From NCBI RefSeq assembly GCF_000297395.2, contig NZ_HF570108.1, positions 76,321 through 140,320 of the forward strand: DNA of 64,000 bases, given 5' to 3'. A program made the translations under genes and the position numbers. Positions within the stretch are counted from its first letter, which is position 1; each line of letters begins with the position of its first letter. Of the stretch, positions 1,793-27,936 are shown piece by piece. Under the pieces are notes generated by a model. It had not been told where the DNA came from. It saw nothing but the letters and a program-made list of their open reading frames with translations, and searched no databases. The DNA is from Micromonospora lupini str. Lupac 08. Lineage in GTDB: Bacteria; Actinomycetota; Actinomycetes; Mycobacteriales; Micromonosporaceae.

Positions 1793-1808
1793 GTTACTGC
1801 TGGGTAAC
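1793..1808. promoter_or_regulatory. 16-bp operator-like site upstream of etfD
   Basis: GTTACTGCTGGGTAAC is an inverted repeat (GTTAC/GTAAC, 6-nt centre) overlapping the -35 region of the proposed promoter. It matches the site at 27921-27936 before the fadE5-like gene at 14 of 16 positions. It can be read as a TetR-type palindrome, or as a GTNAC-N6-GTNAC direct repeat like MtrA/GlnR boxes. The binding protein is unknown. Confidence 0.6.
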
Positions 1809-1822
1809 CTTGCGCGTAGGCT
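1794..1822 (+). promoter_or_regulatory. Promoter for the etfD transcript
   Basis: TTACTG (1794-1799) and TAGGCT (1817-1822) are spaced 17 bp apart. A TANNNT box 7 nt before ATG 1830 implies that transcription begins at or next to that ATG, giving a leaderless upstream ORF. Confidence 0.5.
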
Positions 1823-1829
1823 GCACTGC

Positions 1830-1922
1830 ATGACCGAGCGGAGCGAGGTCATCGACCGGTCCGGTCGCAGGTGTGGCAGCGGCGCGACGCTGGCTCCGTC
1901 CTGCCCCGGTCCCGGTTGCTGA
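1830..1922 (+). CDS. Leaderless upstream ORF, 30 residues, three cysteines
   Basis: ATG 1830 lies 7 nt after the TAGGCT box and opens a 30-codon frame that ends 37 nt before the etfD-like gene. The peptide starts MTERSEVIDRSGRRC and has cysteines at positions 15, 25 and 30, the last being the final codon before TGA. The first 23 bp also form an inverted repeat (ATGACC ... GGTCAT). I do not recognise a family. A regulatory leader peptide whose translation senses cysteine or charged tRNA-Cys supply is an inference from its position before an Fe-S protein gene; it may equally be a chance ORF. Confidence 0.35.
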   Translation: MTERSEVIDRSGRRCGSGATLAPSCPGPGC

Positions 1923-1959
1923 ACCGCTCGACAGGCAGCAGACCGGGGAGGCCAACTCG

Positions 1960-26708: not shown

Positions 26709-27836
26709 ATGCTGTCCCTCGTACCCACGCGACTCCTCCAGTCGGGCCGTAGCCCGCTGAGCCCCGGATCCCGCGCCGGCCTCGGCGCGGCCCTCGTCCT
26801 GCTCGCGATCGTCTCGGGCCTGGAGGTGGCCGACGGCCGTCGGGCGCACTACGTCGCGCTCCTGGTGGCCGCCCCGCTCCTGGCCGCCGCCCTGGCTGCC
26901 TGGCGGGTGGTGCTCGGTGTCGGTGCCGTGGCGACCCTGATCGGGGTGGGCTTCGCCCTGGTCGACCCGAAGATGATGCTGGTGACCTCGGTCAACGTGA
27001 TCGGCGTCGCGCTCGCGAGCGGGCTGGCCGTGGCGGTGGCCTCGATACGCCAGCGGCAGGCGGAGCAACTCGCCGAGCTCACCAAGCTGGCCTCGGTGGC
27101 CCAGCAGGCGGTCCTGCGCCCGCTCGGGCCGCAGGTCGGCATGCTCTCGGTCGCCGGCCGCTACATCTCCTCCACCGCCAGAGCCGAGATCGGCGGCGAC
27201 CTGTACGAGGCGATCGACACCCCGTACGGCGTCCGCATGATCATCGGTGACGTCCGCGGCAAGGGCCTGGACGCGGTCCGGTTGGCCAGCATCGTCCTCG
27301 GCTCCTACCGGCACGTGGCCTATGAGCGCGCCGACCTGCGCGCCGTCGTCGCCGACCTGGACCGCGCGGTGGCCCGCAACGTCGGCGACGAGGACTTCGT
27401 GACCGCCGCGCTCGTGGAGGAGCGGGGCGGGACGCTCACGATCGTCAACTGCGGACACCCGTCGCCACTGCTGTTGCGCCGGGGCAAGGTGATCCCGCTG
27501 GAGCCGCCGGCACCGGCGCCGCCCCTCGGGTTCATGCCTGTGGTGCGCCCCCGCGTGGAGCGCCTGGAGCCCGGCGACCGCCTGCTGCTGTTCACCGACG
27601 GTCTCGGCGAGGCCCGGCGGGACGGTGAGTTCTTCCCCACGGCCGACCGGGCGTGGCGGCTGCTCGGGCACGGCACGGTCGCCGACGGGCTCGCCTCGCT
27701 GGAGACGGCCCTCGTCGAGTGGGTGCACGGGCACCTGGACGACGACATCGCCCTGGTCCTGATGGAGTACGTCGGTGCCCGCACGGGCGCGACGTCGGCC
27801 GTGCCGAGCTGGGAGGTCGGCGCCTCCGAGAGCTGA
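26709..27836 (+). CDS. SpoIIE/PP2C-type serine phosphatase with membrane N-terminus
   Basis: A 375-residue protein with three or four membrane segments (about 22-110) followed by an SpoIIE-type PP2C domain. The metal-binding motifs EIGGDLYEAID, MIIGDVRGKGLDAVRLA, IVNCGHPSPLLLRRG, LLLFTDGLGEARRDGEF and DDDIALVLM are all in order. Such RsbU/SpoIIE-like phosphatases commonly dephosphorylate anti-sigma-factor antagonists. There is no PAS, GAF or kinase domain, so any signal is probably sensed through the membrane part. ATG 26709 has only a weak ribosome binding site. Confidence 0.88.
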   Translation: MLSLVPTRLLQSGRSPLSPGSRAGLGAALVLLAIVSGLEVADGRRAHYVALLVAAPLLAAALAAWRVVLGVGAVATLIGVGFALVDPKMMLVTSVNVIGVALASGLAVAVASIRQRQAEQLAELTKLASVAQQAVLRPLGPQVGMLSVAGRYISSTARAEIGGDLYEAIDTPYGVRMIIGDVRGKGLDAVRLASIVLGSYRHVAYERADLRAVVADLDRAVARNVGDEDFVTAALVEERGGTLTIVNCGHPSPLLLRRGKVIPLEPPAPAPPLGFMPVVRPRVERLEPGDRLLLFTDGLGEARRDGEFFPTADRAWRLLGHGTVADGLASLETALVEWVHGHLDDDIALVLMEYVGARTGATSAVPSWEVGASES

Positions 27837-27886
27837 GCGGGACGGCGGCGCGAAACTGTGTAATCGCCGTCACTTACGTGATCGGC

Positions 27887-27916
27887 TTGTCGCTGCCTAC
27901 CCGCGAGTAATACAGT
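27887..27916 (+). promoter_or_regulatory. Promoter of the acyl-CoA dehydrogenase gene
   Basis: TTGTCG (27887-27892) and TACAGT (27911-27916) are spaced 18 bp apart. The predicted transcription start near 27923 falls inside the operator at 27921. Confidence 0.45.
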
Positions 27917-27920
27917 CGGG

Positions 27921-27936
27921 GTTACTGATCGGTAAC
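27921..27936. promoter_or_regulatory. 16-bp operator-like site upstream of fadE
   Basis: GTTACTGATCGGTAAC is an inverted repeat that matches the site before etfD (1793-1808) at 14 of 16 positions with identical spacing. It sits over the predicted transcription start, a repressor-like position. Confidence 0.6.

Follow-up and report, generated by a model that had tools for sequence, protein, structure and literature searches.

The window analysed here is a stretch of 64,000 nucleotides of Micromonospora lupini str. Lupac 08 (C4:76321-140320 of a genome, G000, of 7,325,824 bases in 4 contigs). The features that concern us are as follows, in window coordinates.

1793 to 1808, forward strand: operator-like inverted repeat of 16 bp, GTTACTGCTGGGTAAC, lying 152 bp ahead of the predicted start codon of etfD
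1960 to 4158, forward strand: gene for an EtfD-like membrane Fe-S/CCG-domain protein of 732 aa, predicted to re-oxidise ETF (Pfam CCG and Fer4)
27896 to 27911, forward strand: a further operator-like copy, CCTACCCGCGAGTAAT, weaker than the main fadE5 site and 25 bp upstream of it
27921 to 27936, forward strand: operator-like 16-bp inverted repeat GTTACTGATCGGTAAC upstream of fadE5, 28 bp before the start codon
27964 to 29820, forward strand: gene for a FadE5-like acyl-CoA dehydrogenase of 618 aa (Pfam; PDB 6kse)
32438 to 32453, no strand assigned: third, weaker site GTTACTTTCAAGTAGT, between an HlyIII-family gene (reverse strand) and a row of carboxyltransferase/LamB-YcsF genes (forward strand)

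The gene identities given in the original prediction hold. The dehydrogenase at 27964 matched the solved FadE5 structure 6kse with 850.7 bits, and it is 98% identical to the FadE5 proteins of several named Micromonospora species. The other gene encodes a CCG/4Fe-4S protein according to both Pfam and PDB, where its only match was 9ojn (736 bits), an 'iron-sulfur-binding reductase', and homologues that are 51-56% identical were found in 8 of 8 genomes of the Mycobacteriaceae (f2). We take the protein at 1960 to be the one named EtfD (Rv0338c).

Both 16-mers lie where they had been reported, and they are identical at 14 of 16 positions. When the whole 7.3-Mb genome was scanned, exact matches of GTTACYGNNSRGTAAC were found only at these two places, upstream of etfD and fadE5. 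The stricter pattern first suggested for such a scan was therefore too narrow to reveal a regulon, since even this wider one finds only the two given sites here. Within the window, GTTACTGNNSGGTAAC with up to two mismatches gave 4 matches, two of which are the two strands of one site, versus 0.17 expected from shuffles. Among the 58 gene starts of the window, two have an exact site (the etfD and fadE5 sites) and two have a site with one mismatch (the genes on both sides of the third site). In addition, the original prediction placed one site over a -35 box and the other over a transcription start. A sigma-70 consensus scan, which found no promoter in the upstream region of either etfD or fadE5, did not confirm these overlaps.

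Two further sequences were seen in the window. GTTACGGCACCGTAGG stands next to the third site (window 32423-32453 together), and GTTGCGGATCGGTAAC, with two mismatches, is located at 9981-9996, in the intergenic region between genes at 7848-9824 (reverse strand) and 10272-11249 (forward strand).

Conservation in orthologous promoters had been set as the test of the shared site, and it was found for both genes. Within one mismatch, the site was present in 52 of 53 fadE5 promoters (37 exact and 15 with one mismatch; 29 genomes of the family and 24 of other families) and in 26 of 30 etfD promoters (19 exact and 7 with one mismatch), and the sampled genomes ranged from Micromonosporaceae to Mycobacterium and Streptomyces. 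For comparison, dinucleotide-shuffled promoters reached one mismatch in 1.1% (fadE5) and 0.8% (etfD) of cases and zero mismatches never, and stretches inside genes never fell below two mismatches. These two sets served as the background, and a pool of random segments, which contained the sites themselves, was set aside. Two unrelated upstream stretches might resemble each other by chance, and the strict motif indeed has only two exact copies in this genome. However, the conservation in both sets of promoters against about 1% of shuffles makes the probability of this explanation practically negligible. Each of the two 16-bp palindromes, upstream of etfD and of fadE5, is a copy of the same conserved element, TTAC-Y-N4-R-GTAA. 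The shared site is thus confirmed, and one element joins a gene of fatty-acid oxidation to the gene of its electron outlet.

The site before fadE5 was also kept in 80 of 80 promoters from named Micromonosporaceae, the best 80 of 447 relatives (72 exact and 8 with one mismatch). In all four Mycobacterium genomes (g41) the fadE5 promoter carries GTTACTGGTGGGTAAC, and in 9 of 9 Streptomyces genomes (f17 g59) it carries ATTACYGRCGGGTAGC, with one mismatch. The two genera were recognised from TetR proteins, that of L308 being identical to one of M. lacus and that of L296 to a Streptomyces protein. Furthermore, paired sites were found in 47 of the 53 fadE5 promoters, with 24-26 bp as the commonest gap. 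Upstream of the other genes in the 80 named loci, which served as a control, 7 of 607 had an exact site and 120 of 607 had one mismatch. This excess is probably due to the third site, at whose position a one-mismatch site is kept in 9 of 14 relatives inspected. GTTACTTTCAAGTAGT may belong to the same regulon.

The site was absent in 1 of the 53 fadE5 promoters and in 4 of the 30 etfD promoters (G030, G052, and the Mycobacterium genomes G097 and G110). None of these four etfD alignments starts at a start codon, and the true promoter may therefore be located further upstream; other etfD alignments that start at no start codon do show the site. FadE5 paralogues at seven loci (L347, L360, and L373-L377) had no site within one mismatch. 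These loci were left out of the 53, and there were two or three further paralogue matches without a locus. For G083, L372 (846 bits, near a TetR gene) was used over L360 (859 bits); a strict best-hit rule for this genome would give 51 of 53 for fadE5 and 3 of 4 for g41.

The shape of the element was then read from the family. GTTAC-N6-GTAAC occurs 7 times in this genome and 166 times in 41 family genomes, versus 0 and 19 for the backward pattern. Among 104 GTTAC-N3..9-GTAAC matches in 10 genomes, 67 have the N6 spacing and the other six spacings together have 37. There were 159 sites in other family genomes, and 81 of them, chosen by listing order, were examined (29 other genomes, 28 of other genera and one of the same genus). 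Both Y6 and R11 were present in 59 sites, one of the two in 19, and neither in 3, and because of this constraint we regard TTAC-Y-N4-R-GTAA as an inverted repeat. A predicted gene start lies within 350 bp of 75 of the 81 sites (median 50 bp), and 2 of the 81 are inside a predicted gene.

Two known motifs with a similar look were rejected. The BldD motif has an N5 centre, unlike the N6 spacing here. AccR of Streptomyces avermitilis, as described in excerpts of PMC10933834, is a TetR repressor of acyl-CoA metabolism genes with the 16-nt palindrome GTTAA-N6-TTAAC, and it is similar to the present case in regulator family, type of genes, length, and N6 spacing. However, its half-site differs, both window sites having C as their fifth base, and its targets also differ, as compared by motif and description.

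To see which genes adjoin the element, GTTACYGNNSRGTAAC with up to one mismatch was searched and found at 18 places in this genome. A codon-usage gene finder placed none of them inside a gene and 16 no more than 350 bp from a predicted gene start. Eight adjoin lipid/acyl-CoA genes, namely etfD, fadE5, two thiolases, a lipase, a crotonyl-CoA carboxylase/reductase (ccr; 610 bits, cut-off 379), a member of the methylmalonyl-CoA mutase family, and a phospholipase A2. Four more are next to genes for a DUF4442 protein, two alpha/beta hydrolases, and an SDR protein, and the other six adjoin AMIN-like, transketolase-domain, and DUF6230 genes, one unassigned gene, or no gene start (two). Among the 81 sites in other genomes, where neighbours were identified by one representative per similarity cluster, 34 adjoin genes of fat catabolism (beta-oxidation, ETF/etfD, acetyl-CoA assimilation, lipase) or the TetR-A/SCP2 pair described below. 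These are 8 sites at fadE5, 7 at etfD, 6 at lipases, 3 at acyl-CoA dehydrogenases, 2 at crotonyl-CoA carboxylase, 2 at the TetR-A/SCP2 pair, and one each at thiolase, enoyl-CoA hydratase, ETF, MaoC, isocitrate lyase, and citrate synthase genes. A DUF4442 gene stands beside 6 more, and 23 of the 29 other genomes have at least one of these 40 sites. The remaining 41 either have no gene beside them or stand next to genes whose function is different, ambiguous, or unknown, such as those for PnrA-like binding proteins, a LacI/2-hydroxyacid dehydrogenase pair, S15-type hydrolases, large AAA proteins, and DUF6230. The original prediction expected sites ahead of further fad, etf, and fatty-acid genes, and the thiolases, ccr, acyl-CoA dehydrogenases, ETF, isocitrate lyase, and lipases agree with this. 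A regulon for fatty-acid degradation is thereby supported.

The motif of MtrA and GlnR is the direct repeat GTNAC-N6-GTNAC, and a response regulator of this type had been offered as the alternative. The same letters can match this motif, since GTTAC-N6-GTAAC also fits a direct repeat whose period is 11 bp. A branched-chain amino-acid ABC transporter ATPase gene stands beside two sites (L154, L174), and a further site falls within a gene that has a Mur ligase gene as its neighbour (L219). However, lipid genes predominate among the neighbours that were identified, with no gene of nitrogen assimilation, so that the sites are not mainly before cell-wall or nitrogen genes, and the Y6 and R11 constraint gives the centre the symmetry of an inverted repeat. 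We consider this alternative very improbable.

Some single sites deserve description. Two sites that are 147 bp apart (L018/L102; G000:C4:7067110, 7067257) lie upstream of the DUF6230 gene, and related genes with sites were seen in G029 (L168) and G018 (L182, two sites). In G011, one site (L206) lies between an isocitrate lyase gene and a divergent HTH_3 regulator that resembles RamB, and another (L207) lies between an ETF-domain gene and a PLDc_N gene, so that the electron carrier itself adjoins a site. A one-mismatch site of this genome (L012, G000:C4:5577186) is located between UPF0047 and transketolase-domain genes, the latter of which may encode pyruvate dehydrogenase E1. In addition, a site precedes the genes of large proteins at L136/L173, L156, L189, and L212, all from one cluster (the member scanned has AAA_16), and the gene at L156 is divergent from a lipase-like gene. 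These large proteins are reminiscent of the LAL-type lipase activators.

The candidate regulator was found through another genus. In G001, an SCP2-like gene and a TetR gene flank one of the sites, and this led to the orthologue here, TetR-A (G000:C4:167569-168198), which is located 27 kb to the right of the window and 63 kb from fadE5 and is divergent from an SCP2-domain gene. GCTACTCGCGCGTAAC stands upstream of TetR-A, starting 44 bp before its predicted start; the centre of this site is TCGCGC, unlike the fadE5 and etfD sites. Among the promoters of 25 TetR-A orthologues in the family (L254, with no gene called, was left out), GTTAC-N6-GTAAC was present in 20 with at most one mismatch and in all 25 with at most two, and in many of them the site is followed by a second, weaker copy. 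Outside the family, TTAC-N6-GTAA with at most one mismatch preceded only 8 of 24 TetR-A homologues, and 0 of 9 in Streptomyces. AlphaFold predicts TetR-A with confidence as an all-helical protein (mean pLDDT 90.4, pTM 0.85).

TetR-A is 38-40% identical to nine Mycobacterium proteins, one of them from M. marinum. In 7 of the 8 genomes of Mycobacteriaceae, a TetR-A homologue lies 5-16 kb from fadE5, and the eighth has them on separate contigs. By the gene order of H37Rv, we take this place near fadE5 to be that of Rv0238 (FdmR); the study of FdmR is reportedly that of Dong et al. (2021) in PNAS. Because the element stands in its own promoter and its homologues occupy the place of FdmR near mycobacterial fadE5, TetR-A is likely to be the FdmR orthologue and the reader of the element, as judged by sequence comparison. 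The original prediction left the regulator unnamed, and this needs amending, as the best candidate is an orthologue of a known protein. In excerpts of the literature, FdmR is described as a repressor that responds to long-chain acyl-CoA and acts on fatty-acid degradation genes (PMC12403877) and as a key regulator of fadE5 (PMC9262360), and Rv0238 and Rv3208 are two of five TetR regulators that all the mycobacteria examined there retain (PMC4482099). Our search of open-licence papers found no paper naming the regulon in Micromonospora.

The present system resembles the FdmR regulon in having a TetR-family protein, fadE5, and other fatty-acid degradation genes (as excerpts of PMC9262360 and PMC12403877 describe them), a homologous TetR gene near fadE5 in Mycobacteriaceae, and the same palindrome at mycobacterial fadE5. 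However, in Micromonosporaceae the candidate regulator is encoded 63 kb away from fadE5, divergently from a neighbouring SCP2 gene; depending on the genome, etfD, ccr, isocitrate lyase, and lipase genes stand beside sites; and fadE5 sites are present without the regulator in 13 genera.

There were 74 TetR_N matches in this genome, of which 30 were fetched and 28 scored, and none of the 27 scored TetR loci other than TetR-A had the element within one mismatch before it. One of the 44 matches outside the fetched set, or a protein of another family, could be the reader instead, and the sites that persist in genomes without TetR-A (see below) leave room for it. The 27 negative loci speak against such a regulator, as does the independent report, in excerpts of PMC9262360, that FdmR controls fadE5, and we regard it as distinctly unlikely. 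Three particular candidates were rejected: the TetR gene of the window (59719-60360), with no listed site before it and no NCBIfam family match; an SbtR-like TetR beside one site of G029 (L164), which was not seen beside the related sites L171, L186, L195, and L200; and TetR-C (G000:C4:833965), with 4 mismatches at best before it. TetR-C adjoins a gene that resembles a desaturase by eye. Meanwhile, two other TetR genes (L010/L230 and L011/L231; G000:C4:4368883, 5231406) end close to a one-mismatch site, and at L011/L231 a lipase gene of the same strand as the TetR gene stands on the other side of this site. Because these TetR genes end beside sites, local regulators are possible at L010 and L231.

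The distribution of TetR-A complicates the choice of reader. TetR-A is absent in 15 of 41 family genomes, and the sites are not confined to genomes with the regulator: an exact fadE5 site was found in 13 of the 13 testable genomes without it (not among these are G005, 69% complete, and G033, with no FadE5 at the threshold). Thus, if the site is read in those genomes, another reader must exist there. On a quick FadE5 tree, the presence and absence of TetR-A need 6 changes (gains or losses), at least 4 of them forced by well-supported branches, and repeated loss is the simpler reading because Mycobacterium and Streptomyces have homologues. GTTAC-N6-GTAAC occurs on average 2.8 times in the 15 genomes without TetR-A versus 4.8 times in the 26 with it, as raw means without kinship correction; the genomes without TetR-A also tend to be smaller.

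Either a FasR-like paralogue, TetR-B (G000:C4:6591831), shares these operators, or a third protein does. TetR-B is present in 14 of the 15 family genomes without TetR-A, in which the sites persist, and the exception is again the incomplete G005. The same 75-aa gene, presumably DUF3107, follows TetR-B in those genomes and here. TetR-B scored 263 bits with the NCBIfam FasR model, below the cut-off of 330 bits, and its best PDB match was 6o6p (191 bits). Furthermore, the oligonucleotides in crystals of M. tuberculosis FasR contain TACTGGCGAGTT and TACCCGTACGTA, which resemble the half-sites here (excerpts of PMC7382501), and FasR (Rv3208) is a related TetR protein that senses long acyl-CoA. It might therefore be proposed that TetR-B is the main reader and that the FdmR-like protein is narrower or redundant. 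However, FasR is reported in the same excerpts as an activator of the fas-acpS operon (fas and acpS), not a regulator of degradation, and no fatty-acid synthase gene was among the neighbours identified. In addition, the TetR-B promoters scored had 2-4 mismatches at best, and the recognition helices of the two TetR types differ (SKPVLYQHF vs SKPMVYAYL). We think this proposal unlikely. A somewhat better, still tentative possibility is that TTAC-Y-N4-R-GTAA is one operator code read across Actinomycetes by acyl-CoA-sensing TetR paralogues of two types, FdmR and FasR, so that FdmR was repeatedly lost and the FasR type took over. Under this shared code, FdmR could be lost and the fadE5 site kept because both TetR types can read it.

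Taking these results together, our preferred reading, to which we give a probability of about 0.62, is that the sites are operators of a fatty-acid-degradation regulon under an FdmR-type TetR repressor that is relieved by long-chain acyl-CoA. We infer binding, repression, and the acyl-CoA signal for this regulon as follows. A TetR-A dimer would cover the palindrome and block RNA polymerase, and at fadE5, where two palindromes are 25 bp apart, there would probably be two dimers. When fatty acids enter, their CoA esters would fill the ligand pocket and TetR-A would let go. Then the genes for the dehydrogenase, the electron outlet, the thiolases, the lipases, and acetyl-CoA assimilation would rise together, and the repressor with them. 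The FasR-like paralogue in the same genomes may read the same sites too.

Thus, the regulator is likely not new but an FdmR orthologue, and the sites most likely represent the FdmR regulon of Micromonosporaceae, which probably extends a known control system. Micromonosporaceae are known for antibiotics built from acyl-CoA units, and for fatty-acid breakdown in this family there are now a predicted operator, a list of predicted targets, and a candidate regulator. The surprise is that the element is also present in relatives without an FdmR relative, which raises the question of its reader there. From Streptomyces to Mycobacterium genomes, the dehydrogenase and its electron outlet stand under one predicted switch.
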